Of a stretch of 64,000 bases of DNA, positions 30,580-64,000 are shown one piece after another (within the stretch, counting starts at the first letter, position 1; every line of letters starts with the position of its first letter). Under the pieces are notes generated by a model. The model was given only the letters and a program-made list of their open reading frames with translations, did no database searches and was not told the DNA's origin. This DNA comes from Pseudomonadota bacterium (lineage in GTDB: Bacteria > Pseudomonadota > Alphaproteobacteria > SHVZ01): the NCBI GenBank assembly GCA_016195085.1, contig JACQAG010000055.1:1-64000 (forward strand), given 5' to 3'. A program made the translations under genes and the position numbers.

Positions 30580-30654
30580 GCCGCCGTAGCTCAGTGGTAG
30601 AGCGCACCCTTGGTAAGGGTGAGGTCGACAGTTCAATCCTGTCCGGCGGCACCA
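30580..30654 (+). tRNA. tRNA-Thr (GGU)
   Basis: The 75-nt gene forms a complete cloverleaf: a GCCGCCG/CGGCGGC acceptor stem, anticodon GGT in the loop TTGGTAA closed by a CACCC/GGGTG stem, T loop TTCAATC, and an encoded CCA at 30652-30654. Confidence 0.97.
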
Positions 30655-52612: not shown

Positions 52613-53977
52613 CTACGGCGATCCCGGACGGGAGAAATCGAGCATCCGGACGCTGCTGACGATTGCCGCGCCGAGCGCGAAGGCGGCGGCGGTTAAAAGC
52701 GCGATGGTGGTCCCCTCCTCCGGCCACAGGCCGAAGAGGACGGCTACCAGGGCTGTCCCGGTGGTTTGGCCGAGGAGCCGCGCGGTTCCCAGCATGCCGC
52801 TGGCGCCGCCGCTCCGCTCCTTCGGCGCCGCGGTGATGATGGTGCGGTTGTTGGGCGATTGAAAGAGCGCGAAGCCGAGACCGCAGACCGCCATGCGCCA
52901 GACGATATCGGCGCTGCTTGGATGCATGGGCAAGACCGCTAGAGCCAACAGGCCGGCAGCGAAGATTGTGAGCCCGATGCCGCCCAAGAGGCCGGCATTG
53001 TGCCTATCGGCGAGGCGTCCGGAAATCGGCGCCACCATGGCCACGGTCAAGGGCCAGGCGGTCATCAGCAATCCGGTCTCCACCTGGGTGCGGCCCAGCA
53101 CGTTCTGCAGATAAAACGGCAAGGAGACGTAAGCCATCATCTGCGCGGCGAAAGAGCAGGTCGAGGTGGCGATCGACAAGGCAAAGACCGGCAGGCGCAG
53201 GAGATCGATCGGCAGCAAGGGTGCGGCGCGGGAGAGCTGGCGCAGCACGAGCGCGGTGCCGAGCGCCAAAGCGGCCGCGAACTCGATGACGACGAATAGC
53301 TCGCCTTCGCCATGGCCGATGCCGTCGAGGCCGATGATGAAGAGGCCGAAGGTGAGCGCGTTCAGGAGCGCGCTGCCGAGATCGAAGCGTCGGGGCGATG
53401 CCGGCGTGCGGGGCAAGGAGCCGGAGGCGAGGAACGCCAAGAGGCCGATCGGGACATTGACGGCAAACAGCCACTGCCAAGGTGCCACCGCCAGAATGGC
53501 CGAGGCCACGCTCGGGCCGATCGCCGAGGATAGGGCGACGACCAGCGCGTTGACGGCGACGCCGCGTCCCAACATGTGCCGTGGATAGACGAAGCGGAGC
53601 AAGGCCGAGTTGACGCTCATGATACCGGCGGCGCCGACGCCCTGCAGCACGCGGGCGGCAGTGAGCTGGGTCAGGGAGTCGGAGATGGCGCAGCCGAGCG
53701 AGAACACCGTGAACAGCACCAGGCCGGCGCGGTAGATGCGGCGGTAGCCGTAGATGTCACCGGCCGATGCCAGCGGCAAGAGCGACATGGTGATCACCAG
53801 CTGATAGGCGTTCACCACCCAGATCGAGGCCGCGTCGCTCGTGTGCAGATCGCGCGCGATGGTCGGGAGCGCCACATTGGCGATGGCGCCGTCCAGGACC
53901 GCCAGCGTGATCCCGAGCGCGATCGCGATGATGGCCCGGTAGCGCTGCGGCGTCGGCAGGCCGTCATCGGCCGTCAT
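52613..53977 (-). CDS. DHA2-family MFS drug/solute exporter
   Basis: This 454-residue inner-membrane protein resembles EmrB/QacA drug:H+ antiporters with about 14 hydrophobic segments. The first segment carries the LDGAIANVALP motif of the family, and ADRHNAG is the loop after the eighth segment. It is slightly shorter than typical EmrB (about 510). No EmrA-type adaptor gene is adjacent, so it may act alone. It likely exports toxic compounds or a metabolite. Confidence 0.88.
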   Translation of the reverse strand: MTADDGLPTPQRYRAIIAIALGITLAVLDGAIANVALPTIARDLHTSDAASIWVVNAYQLVITMSLLPLASAGDIYGYRRIYRAGLVLFTVFSLGCAISDSLTQLTAARVLQGVGAAGIMSVNSALLRFVYPRHMLGRGVAVNALVVALSSAIGPSVASAILAVAPWQWLFAVNVPIGLLAFLASGSLPRTPASPRRFDLGSALLNALTFGLFIIGLDGIGHGEGELFVVIEFAAALALGTALVLRQLSRAAPLLPIDLLRLPVFALSIATSTCSFAAQMMAYVSLPFYLQNVLGRTQVETGLLMTAWPLTVAMVAPISGRLADRHNAGLLGGIGLTIFAAGLLALAVLPMHPSSADIVWRMAVCGLGFALFQSPNNRTIITAAPKERSGGASGMLGTARLLGQTTGTALVAVLFGLWPEEGTTIALLTAAAFALGAAIVSSVRMLDFSRPGSP

Positions 53978-59868: not shown

Positions 59869-60166
59869 TGGTGAGCCCGGAGGGGATCGAACCCTCGGCC
59901 CTCTGATTAACGCACCACTTCGGCTTTCGCCGCCCCGTTTCGGGTTCGTGGTCCGGACTGTGCCTTGACCTTGCGCTTCTCGCGGTTAGGTCCCCGCCGT
60001 CCAGTCTCTACGGCTTCCCGCCGGGAACTCTTCCCCGGGGGCTTGCTCCGGCGTTGCCGTCGCCATGACGCGGACGGGTTCACCGGCTTTGACGGGTTCT
60101 ACCTCGGCGGTTTCCCGCCGGGCACTCCTATCGAAGTCAGATGCTCTACCGCTGAGCTACGGGCTC
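59869..60166 (-). tRNA. tRNA-Lys (UUU), interrupted by a group I intron
   Basis: Two exons on the minus strand, 60134-60166 (33 nt) and 59869-59910 (42 nt), join to a 75-nt tRNA with encoded CCA. The acceptor GAGCCCG pairs with CGGGCTC, the D stem GCTC with GAGC, the anticodon stem TCTGA with TCAGA, and the T stem GAGGG with CCCTC. The T loop is TTCGATC. The spliced anticodon loop is CTTTTAA, anticodon UUU, so the identity is Lys. The intron falls between U34 and U35. Without splicing the tRNA could not function. Confidence 0.93.
59911..60133 (-). ncRNA. Group I intron (tRNA-intron class, IC3-like), 223 nt
   Basis: This self-splicing-type intron interrupts tRNA-Lys. Visible elements on the minus strand are an internal guide GAGU at 60124-60127 that pairs with the 5' exon end ACUU to form P1 with the essential U.G pair; a GGCGG-GAAA-CCGCC hairpin (60106-60119); P7 strands AGACTGG (60001-60007) and CCAGTC-complement (59953-59960); a GGCGAAAGCC hairpin (59922-59931); and terminal G at 59911. 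The core resembles the Azoarcus tRNA-Ile and Agrobacterium tRNA-Arg introns, with P7 showing a covariant pair change. No homing endonuclease is encoded. Confidence 0.92.
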
Positions 60167-61350: not shown

Positions 61351-61902
61351 TCAGCTATAGGTCGGCGTCTGCTTGGCGCGGGCTTGCTCGCCCGGCGCAT
61401 CGAGCGCGAAGCGGTGCGCCAGGCGCTCGACCACGCGCGGGCTCACGAACGGGCTGACATCGCCGCCCAGCCGGCCGATCTCCTTGACCAGGCGCGAGGA
61501 GATGAACTGGTGGCTCTCCGAGGACATGAGGAACACCGTCTCGATCTCGGTATTGAGCCTGGCGTTCATGCCGGCCAACTGAAACTCGTATTCGAAGTCC
61601 GAGACCGCACGCAAACCGCGGAGGATGAAGGCCGCGCCGACCGACTCCGCGAATTTGATCAGCAGGTTGTCGAACGCCTTGACCTCGATCCGGCTCGCCT
61701 CGCCATTGGCCATGGCGGCGATCTCGTCGCGCACCAGCTCGACCCGCTCGCCGATGGAGAATAATGGTCCCTTGCCGGCGTTGCCGGCGACCGCGACGAT
61801 CAGCCTGTCGCACACCCGGGTCGCGCGCCGGATGATGTCTATATGGCCGTTGGTGATCGGATCGAAGGTGCCGGGATAGACGCCGACGCGCTCGGTGCTC
61901 AT
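61351..61902 (-). CDS. coaD: Phosphopantetheine adenylyltransferase
   Basis: This 183-residue enzyme transfers AMP to 4'-phosphopantetheine, the penultimate step of coenzyme A synthesis. The nucleotidyltransferase motifs GTFDPITNGH near the N-terminus and ISSRLVKEI further on are present. It is about 15-20 residues longer than E. coli CoaD, through a polar C-terminal tail. The ATG overlaps the gyrA stop by 4 nt, the usual alphaproteobacterial gyrA-coaD arrangement. Confidence 0.95.
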   Translation of the reverse strand: MSTERVGVYPGTFDPITNGHIDIIRRATRVCDRLIVAVAGNAGKGPLFSIGERVELVRDEIAAMANGEASRIEVKAFDNLLIKFAESVGAAFILRGLRAVSDFEYEFQLAGMNARLNTEIETVFLMSSESHQFISSRLVKEIGRLGGDVSPFVSPRVVERLAHRFALDAPGEQARAKQTPTYS

Positions 61903-64000
61903 GCGCCTTCTCCTTCCGGCGGCGGCTCGGACGGAGTCTCTTCCGCGCCCTCGCCGTTGCCGTTGGTTTCACCGGTATCCGGCAGATGGCTGACGGAAAC
62001 CACCCGCTCGCCCTCCTCGACCTTGAAGAGGGTGACGCCCTGGGTCTTGCGCCCGGCGATGCGGATGTCGTCGACCGGGCAGCGGATGAGCTGGCCGCGG
62101 TTCGTCACCAGCATGATCTGGTCGGTGCCGCCCACCGGGAAGCTCTGCACCAGCGGCCCGGTCTTGTCGGTCAGCTCCATATTGGCAATGCCCGTGCCGC
62201 CGCGGTTGGTGATCCGGTACTCGTAGGCGGAGCTGCGCTTGCCGAAGCCATTGGCGCTCACCGTGAGGATGAACTCATCCGCCGCGCCGAGCTCGGCCAG
62301 CCGCGTCTCGGAAAGCTGCACGGTCGGAACCTCGGGTGGCACCGTGTCGCTGTCCACGGGCTCCGCCTCGTTGCCGGCGCCGCGGCGGAGCAACGCGGCA
62401 TGCCTGAGATAGGCGGCGCGCTCTTCCATCGCATAGTCGACGTGACGCAGCATGGAGAGCGAAATCACCTCATCGCCGTTCGCCAATTTGATGCCGCGCA
62501 CGCCCGTCGAGTTGCGGGACGCGAACACGCGCACGTCGCTCACCTGGAAGCGGATGCACTTGCCGTTGCGCGTGGTCAGCAGCACGTCCTGATCCTCGCG
62601 TGCCGGCTGCACGCCGATCAGGCGCTCGCCTTCCTCCTCCAGCTTCATCGCGATCTTGCCGTTGGCCTTGACCGAGGTGAAATCGCCGAGCGCGTTGCGG
62701 CGCACATTGCCCTTGGAGGTGGCGAAATAGATCGTGAGATCCGACCAGGCGGATTCGTCCGTCGGCAGCGGCATCACGGTGGAGATCTTCTCTCCGGCTT
62801 CCAAGGGCAGGATGTTCACCATGGCCTTGCCGCGGGATTGCGGCGTCCCCAGGGGCAGCTTGTAGACCTTGAGCAGGAAGACGATGCCCCGCGAGGTGAA
62901 GAACAGCACCGGCGTGTGGGTATTGGCGACGAAGACCTCGCTGACGAAATCCTCTTCCCGCGTCGCCATGCCGGTGCGGCCGCGGCCGCCGCGGCGCTGG
63001 GCGCGATATGTGGACAGCGGCACCCGCTTGATGTAGCCGCCATGGCTGACGGTGATGACCATGTCCTCACGCTGGATCAGGTCCTCGATATCCTGGTCGG
63101 AGAGCGAATCCTCGAGCGTAGTGCGCCGCGGCGTGGCGAACTGCTCCTTGATCGCCACCAGCTCGGAGCGAAGGATGCCCATCAGCCGCTCCTGGGAGCC
63201 GAGTATGGTCAGGTATTCGGTGATCTGCTTGGCGATGTCGCCGAGCTCGATGGCGATCTTGTCGCGCTCGAGCCCGGTCAGCCGCTGCAGCCGCAGATCC
63301 AGGATGGCGCGCGCCTGCGCCTCGGAGAGCCGGTAGGTGCCGTCGACGATGCCGCGCTCGGGATCGTCGATGAGCCGGATCATCGGTGCCACCTCCTCGG
63401 CCGGCCAGGCCCGGGCCAGGAGCTCGGTGCGGGCGGCGGCCGGATCGGAGGCCTTGCGGATGAGCTGGATCACCGGATCCAGATTGGCGACCGCGATGGC
63501 AAGCCCGACCAATACATGGGCGCGCTCGCGCGCCTTGCTCAGCTCGAAGATGGTACGCCGGGTGATGACCTGCTCGCGGAACTGCACGAAGGCCTGGACG
63601 ATGTCCCGGAGGTTCATCAGCTCCGGCCGTCCGCCGTTGAGCGCCAGCATGTTGACACCGAACGAGGTCTGCAGCGGCGTGAACTTGTAGAGCTGGTTCA
63701 GCACCACCTCTTCCACCGCGTCGCGCTTCAATTCGATCACCACGCGCACGCCGTCGCGGTCGCTTTCGTCCCGGAGCTCGGCGATGCCCTCGATGATCTT
63801 GTCGTTGACCACCTCGGCCATGCGCTCGATCAGCCGCGCCTTGTTCTGCTGGAACGGCACCTCGGTGACGATGATCGCCATGCGCTCGCGGCGGATCTCC
63901 TCCATATGCGTGCGCGAGCGCATGACGATGGAGCCGCGGCCGGTGCGGTAGGCCTCAACGATGCCGGCCTTGCCCATGATGATGCCGCCGGTTGGGAAAT
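61899..64000 (-). CDS. gyrA: DNA gyrase subunit A, N-terminus beyond the window
   Basis: The window holds about 700 codons of gyrA; the gene runs off the right edge, so the active-site Tyr and quinolone-resistance region are not visible. The frame continues upstream of the first internal ATG as FPTGGIIMGKAG, which shows that ATG is not the start. The GyrA box QRRGGRG lies near 62980-63002, opening the C-terminal beta-pinwheel that wraps DNA. The acidic/Pro tail ends in PPPEGEGA. Confidence 0.95.
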   Translation of the reverse strand, partial: FPTGGIIMGKAGIVEAYRTGRGSIVMRSRTHMEEIRRERMAIIVTEVPFQQNKARLIERMAEVVNDKIIEGIAELRDESDRDGVRVVIELKRDAVEEVVLNQLYKFTPLQTSFGVNMLALNGGRPELMNLRDIVQAFVQFREQVITRRTIFELSKARERAHVLVGLAIAVANLDPVIQLIRKASDPAAARTELLARAWPAEEVAPMIRLIDDPERGIVDGTYRLSEAQARAILDLRLQRLTGLERDKIAIELGDIAKQITEYLTILGSQERLMGILRSELVAIKEQFATPRRTTLEDSLSDQDIEDLIQREDMVITVSHGGYIKRVPLSTYRAQRRGGRGRTGMATREEDFVSEVFVANTHTPVLFFTSRGIVFLLKVYKLPLGTPQSRGKAMVNILPLEAGEKISTVMPLPTDESAWSDLTIYFATSKGNVRRNALGDFTSVKANGKIAMKLEEEGERLIGVQPAREDQDVLLTTRNGKCIRFQVSDVRVFASRNSTGVRGIKLANGDEVISLSMLRHVDYAMEERAAYLRHAALLRRGAGNEAEPVDSDTVPPEVPTVQLSETRLAELGAADEFILTVSANGFGKRSSAYEYRITNRGGTGIANMELTDKTGPLVQSFPVGGTDQIMLVTNRGQLIRCPVDDIRIAGRKTQGVTLFKVEEGERVVSVSHLPDTGETNGNGEGAEETPSEPPPEGEGA

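Follow-up and report, generated by a model that had tools for sequence, protein, structure and literature searches.

Two halves of a lysine tRNA gene that lie 223 nt apart raise the question of what separates them, how a functional tRNA could be restored and whether the cell depends on this. We addressed these points for a gene in a 64-kb stretch of a draft bacterial genome, hereafter called the window. With a probability of roughly 0.93, we conclude that the insert is a group I (IC3-like) ribozyme in the anticodon loop of the sole tRNA-Lys(UUU) gene and that its splicing gives an ordinary tRNA.

The Joined Exons Form a Canonical tRNA-Lys(UUU)

The split gene, which includes an encoded CCA, spans positions 60166..59869 on the minus strand and is interrupted 3′ of U34 by 223 nt. 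It consists of three parts:

60134..60166, minus strand: 5′ exon of tRNA-Lys(UUU), 33 nt, with the 5′ strand of the acceptor stem, the D-arm, the 5′ strand of the anticodon stem and C32, U33 and U34
59911..60133, minus strand: group I (IC3-like) intron, 223 nt, between U34 and U35, identified by its match to covariance model R2 (see below) and by covariation
59869..59910, minus strand: 3′ exon of tRNA-Lys(UUU), 42 nt including CCA, with U35, U36, A37 and A38, the 3′ strand of the anticodon stem, the T-arm and the 3′ strand of the acceptor stem

On the minus strand the order is thus GAGCCCGTAGCTCAGCGGTAGAGCATCTGACTT, the 223 nt and TTAATCAGAGGGCCGAGGGTTCGATCCCCTCCGGGCTCACCA. ARAGORN did not call a tRNA on the unspliced gene. 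The joined exons (75 nt) were called as tRNA-Lys(ttt) with a score of 122.2 and adopt the cloverleaf as the fold of lowest energy, so that they give a canonical tRNA with the anticodon UUU. An earlier note on this DNA had described the halves of a perfect cloverleaf of tRNA-Lys(UUU) parted by 223 nt, and both the boundaries, which are exact to the base, and the identity of the host agree with our results. As the anticodon loop reads CUUUUAA, the break falls between U34 and U35. This insertion position is identical to that of the introns in tRNA-Leu(UAA).

The Insert Is Homologous to Group I Introns of Other tRNA Genes

We searched the window with R2, a covariance model built from tRNA-Leu and tRNA-Arg introns alone, with no Lys intron. 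The intron was matched over 59915..60090 with 93.0 bits (E 1.1e-23). Since R2 had not been trained on Lys introns and the second-best match in the 64 kb (53496-53597, plus strand) reached 14.3 bits (E 0.014) and is probably due to chance, the match to the intron is not a chance one. Other Lys-hosted introns tested with R2 gave 86-141 bits, most of them 109-141, and the lowest scores among the Lys introns were those of L113, the window and L214. The intronless orthologues gave no R2 match.

The earlier note had also suggested a check with an Rfam group I model. Rfam matched no group I intron at this locus, either at the gathering score or at relaxed E-values. On related introns RF00028, which has a cut-off of 50 bits, gave 43 bits (Leu), 31 bits (Ile) and 25 bits (Tistrella Lys). 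As the Leu- and Ile-hosted relatives fall short of this cut-off too, the lack of a match in the window says little, and we attribute it to insensitivity of the model rather than to a wrong claim. The homology to the Leu and Arg introns, the small size and the GAAA-capped P2 and P9 place the intron in the tRNA-type IC3 class. Thus, the R2 score together with the covariation across relatives bears out the assignment to tRNA-type group I introns that had been made from the sequence alone. The 223 nt contain no reading frame of the size of a homing endonuclease, and the intron therefore does not qualify as a mobile intron by this feature.

The Catalytic Core Is Supported by Covariation

Unguided folding of 22 homologous cores with RNAalifold recovered P4, P5, P6, P7, P8 and P9, and 19 of the 41 pairs were changed on both sides in some sequence. 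We then specified the group I core on a fuller alignment as 42 pairs, those of the P3 pseudoknot among them. Here 96.1% of the cells were paired, compared to 28-43% when the partners were slid by 1-3 columns, and 21 pairs showed changes on both sides. Of the 42 pairs, 41 are present in the window, P3/P7 pseudoknot included, which gives it the complete catalytic core (P3/P7, P4-P6 and P8). The elements are as follows:

60105..60120, minus strand: P2 hairpin with GAAA tetraloop; six of six pairs with both-side changes across relatives
60091..60096, minus strand: P3 5′ strand, partner of 59993..60001; outer three pairs 100% paired, with both-side changes in 10-13 sequences each
60048..60086, minus strand: P4 and P5; P4 is 60081..60086 paired with 60048..60053
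60012..60047, minus strand: P6/P6a; the single window mismatch (A.C) is in the outer P6 pair
60002..60006, minus strand: P7 5′ strand GACUG, guanosine-binding site; five pairs 100% paired, two of them changed on both sides
59993..60001, minus strand: P3 3′ strand, from the core alignment
59967..59992, minus strand: P8; 59989..59992 paired with 59967..59970, 100% paired, two pairs changed on both sides
59956..59960, minus strand: P7 3′ strand CAGUC, paired with 60002..60006
59915..59951, minus strand: P9 and an inner GAAA-loop hairpin (59922..59931); P9 is 59948..59951 paired with 59915..59918

In the P4/P5 region the window has compensatory changes of its own, from U-A to C-G and from G-C to U.G. 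The terminal base of the intron is G, at 59911, as in group I introns generally.

A location in the anticodon loop is also typical of the archaeal-type tRNA introns that are spliced by proteins at a bulge-helix-bulge motif. However, their usual position is 37/38 (PMC4090602, PMC4033280) and not 34/35, the genome is bacterial, and the 223 nt hold a complete group I core with covariation, so that this explanation can practically be set aside in favor of a group I intron.

The Internal Guide Matches the Host Exon

The 5′ splice site is defined by the following element:

60124..60127, minus strand: internal guide GAGU, which pairs with the exon sequence ACUU (60134..60137) to form P1

The last exon base, U34, faces a G (60134.60127), which gives the U.G pair characteristic of group I introns. 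Introns from a wide range of hosts all had this pair (86 of 86), a count that is partly given by construction, as the candidate search required the exon-final U, though not the facing G. Pairing between exon and guide averaged 3.42 of 4 in these 86 introns, compared to 2.80 (maximum 3.02 in 2000 deals) when the exons were dealt among the introns. The guide tracks the host: GAGUG goes with GACUU (Leu and the window), GGGAG with ACUUU or ACUCU (the other Lys introns), GGGC with UUCCU (Arg) and GCC with UUGGU (Thr). Compared across hosts, the exon-guide pairs are a natural experiment in retargeting by an endonuclease-free ribozyme.

Intron Presence Varies at the Orthologous Locus

The gene is located next to two markers that were identified by tblastn:

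61351..61902, minus strand: coaD, syntenic marker of the orthologous tRNA-Lys(UUU) locus
61899..63977, minus strand: gyrA, 3′ part, in the same syntenic block as coaD

An intact tRNA-Lys(UUU) gene adjoins gyrA-coaD in four genomes of the same family, and an intron-bearing gene lies in this neighborhood, at distances up to several kb, in the window and in L118, L121 (the homologue in Tistrella mobilis), L111 and L100. As the gene is intact in same-family relatives and split in the window and others, the presence of the intron varies at an orthologous locus. The draft is in 95 contigs, and an error of assembly or binning could in principle have created the split gene. Yet related introns interrupt the same gene in independent genomes, one of them the complete genome of an isolate, and the gyrA-coaD neighbors have been kept, which makes an artefact hardly credible and argues for a genuine intron.

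At L183, an intronless tRNA-Lys(UUU) is represented by its 5′ half, with a complete anticodon loop, ∼100 nt upstream of the intron-bearing gene, and this half looks like the remnant of a replaced copy. A draft genome of the Tistrella group carries an intact tRNA-Lys(UUU) besides the split one (L057, positions 1467-1542 of G039:C48, a 7.3-kb contig with nine tRNAs). This intact gene is absent from the complete Tistrella genome G264 and possibly represents a mobile element or contamination.

Splicing Is Predicted to Supply the Only tRNA Reading AAA

We infer the splicing of the intron and its chemistry from the structure described above. After transcription the intron would fold into P1-P9 with the P3/P7 pseudoknot, and the guide GAGU would pair with ACUU at the end of the exon. 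Cleavage 3′ of U34, at the U.G pair, would be carried out by a guanosine bound in P7. The freed U34 would then attack after the terminal G, so that the 223-nt intron leaves and U34 is ligated to U35. This would yield an ordinary tRNA-Lys(UUU), the cell's only reader of AAA. Tistrella mobilis, an isolate whose genome is complete, offers a way to test for splicing; there the spliced tRNA would join ...CUGACUUU to UAAUCAG. A precedent is the tRNA-Arg(CCU) intron of Bartonella, which self-splices in vitro and is spliced in vivo (PMC7717549).

The genome of the window is a draft of 4.81 Mb in 95 contigs. tRNA-Lys(CUU) is present, and within this 95.9%-complete draft no second tRNA-Lys(UUU) was found, the case for which the earlier note had expected splicing to be essential; another intact copy could lie in an assembly gap. 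In the complete Tistrella mobilis genome (G264), which has a related intron, the sole intact lysine tRNA found has the anticodon CUU. By established decoding rules, a tRNA with the anticodon CUU should not read AAA. The lysine codons of five window genes comprise 10 AAA and 65 AAG, and AAA is used in gyrA and coaD. As no other tRNA-Lys(UUU) was found here or in Tistrella mobilis, splicing is probably essential.

The gene might instead be a pseudogene whose intron no longer splices, with another tRNA reading lysine AAA; the draft state of the genome, the mismatch in P6 and the place of the window among the three lowest-scoring Lys introns would fit this. We consider it very unlikely, because the exons are intact in both cloverleaf and CCA, gyrA and coaD use AAA codons for which neither this draft nor the Tistrella genome offers another UUU lysine tRNA, and the changes of the window in P4 and P3 are compensatory rather than random. 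The window intron is thus very probably functional. Given its P6 mismatch and its 93 bits, compared to 109-141 in most Lys-hosted introns, splicing may be impaired or assisted by a protein.

Related Introns Occur in Several Alphaproteobacterial tRNA Genes

A DNA pattern was run over 84,980 species genomes and the matches were inspected. True Lys-hosted introns were present in ten records, namely the complete isolate genome of Tistrella mobilis KA081020-065, eight records labelled Alphaproteobacteria or Rhodospirillaceae and one labelled Gammaproteobacteria. The other 21 of the 31 matches lacked P7 and were rejected as chance. Matches in coding sequence (L086, L087) were discarded, and two matches on viral contigs were without P7.

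Using a second model, R1, we detected introns in 47 of 385 alphaproteobacterial genomes. Hosts were assigned by in silico splicing and ARAGORN, with less confidence in the case of Leu(CAA) and Arg(UCU) and of a few unassigned introns. Ties of ARAGORN between adjacent splice sites were settled by taking the largest site within 33 to 36 and dropping unreal anticodons, and the hosts of L183, L217, L114 and L224 were corrected by hand; His(aug) and Thr(agt) had been false hosts produced by such ties. Lysine tRNA genes were hosts in 12 of the 385 genomes (Lys(UUU) in eight, Lys(CUU) in four), suggesting that in ∼3% of the sampled alphaproteobacteria a lysine tRNA escapes annotation pipelines. Further hosts were Thr(GGU), Thr(CGU), probably Leu(CAA), and the known Leu(UAA) and Arg(CCU). 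Among 398 genomes drawn from the phylum, the introns outside the Alphaproteobacteria were in Leu(UAA), Arg(CCU), Ile(CAU) and Arg(UCU), and none was in Lys.

The introns in tRNA-Thr(GGU) are inserted at 36/37 (L178, L196, L203, L210, L213) and those in tRNA-Thr(CGU) are L208 and L212. Thr-hosted introns form supported clades in the full-intron tree, and we know of no earlier report of group I introns in tRNA-Thr. The probable tRNA-Leu(CAA) introns at 33/34 are L209, L205 and L221, and L234 is probably in tRNA-Arg(UCU), both hosts being assigned by in silico splicing. One genome, G129, has introns in both tRNA-Lys(CUU) (L083) and tRNA-Thr(GGU) (L178), and the pattern search found no intact lysine tRNA of either kind in it. 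The tRNA-Lys(CUU) intron L217 (G135) is 366 nt long, and short GATATGTCGT-type repeats have enlarged its P6 region.

Origin of the Lysine tRNA Introns

A single supported clade (98/80) holds most of the Lys introns, from UUU and CUU hosts alike. Their insertion site is 35/36, except for one that has slid to 34/35. In the full-intron tree the intron of the window and that of G375 fall among the Leu(UAA)-type introns, with whose position and guide they agree. Placing all Lys introns in one clade was rejected when full introns were used (p 0.017) and also after removal of P1 (p 0.045); the core-only alignment did not reject it (p 0.27).

It is possible, if somewhat doubtful, that all tRNA-Lys introns including that of the window go back to one invasion, a matter of origin and not of mechanism. 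The core-only result is compatible with this, and TCCGG and the P3 pairing GUC/GAC are common to the window and the other Lys introns. Against it stand the tree and its tests with full introns and without P1, as well as the 34/35 site and the GAGUG guide of the window, which are those of Leu(UAA) and not of the 35/36 Lys clade. The better reading of these sequences, suggestive though unproven, is that an intron of the Leu(UAA) type invaded tRNA-Lys separately. More broadly, we would give about even odds to a scenario in which endonuclease-free IC3 introns moved repeatedly among alphaproteobacterial tRNA genes (Leu, Arg, Lys(UUU), Lys(CUU), Thr(GGU), Thr(CGU) and probably Leu(CAA)), with the guide retuned to each anticodon loop. 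tRNA-Lys(UUU) would then have been invaded at least twice, and the window lineage would have come directly from tRNA-Leu(UAA), where the loop also starts with GACUU.

Relation to Known tRNA Introns

The closest known counterparts are the IC3 introns in tRNA-Leu(UAA) of cyanobacteria, plastids and proteobacteria, which resemble the window intron in the core, the 34/35 position after GACUU, the GAGUG guide, the terminal G and the lack of an endonuclease. They differ in the host and in the start of exon 2, which is UUAAUC in the window and AAAAUC in Leu. The tRNA-Ile(CAU) intron of Azoarcus has the IC3 architecture of the window intron and GAAA loops in L2 and L9, but lies in another host and at another site; the covariance model that found other tRNA introns also recovered Ile(CAU)-hosted ones. 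Plastid trnK(UUU) carries a group II intron, which means the same tRNA host but a different class of ribozyme, in an organelle. The tRNA-Arg(CCU) introns of alphaproteobacteria (Agrobacterium, Bartonella BbgpI; PMC7717549) share a homologous IC3 core, but differ from the window in host, sit at 36/37 and carry GGGC, a guide matching CCU.

Published reviews and a survey name Leu, fMet and Ile as hosts or do not mention Lys (PMC3984707, PMC4033280, PMC8450103). The sole bacterial tRNA-Lys claim comes from cyanobacteria, where inserts of 22-49 nt in tRNA-Lys(CUU), Gly and Arg were taken as group I introns (PMC5733544); being far too short for a group I core, these inserts are not comparable to the window intron. 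In the open-licence literature, which is what we searched, we found no bacterial group I intron in tRNA-Lys(UUU). It is thus apparently an undescribed bacterial host, although priority is not certain, and with it the small set of bacterial tRNAs that host group I introns gains the only one that decodes AAA. The earlier suggestion of a new host gene holds in this respect, but the case is not unique, as about a dozen other alphaproteobacteria have such introns and tRNA-Lys(CUU) is a host as well.

The genome of the window also encodes a selenocysteine tRNA (L068, G000:C84:53864-53954). Two tRNA-Leu(UAA) genes lie 1.8 kb apart at 30637 and 32476 of G000:C85 (L028 and L067; 61.0 and 32.9 bits), and the lower-scoring second gene is perhaps an integration-site copy.
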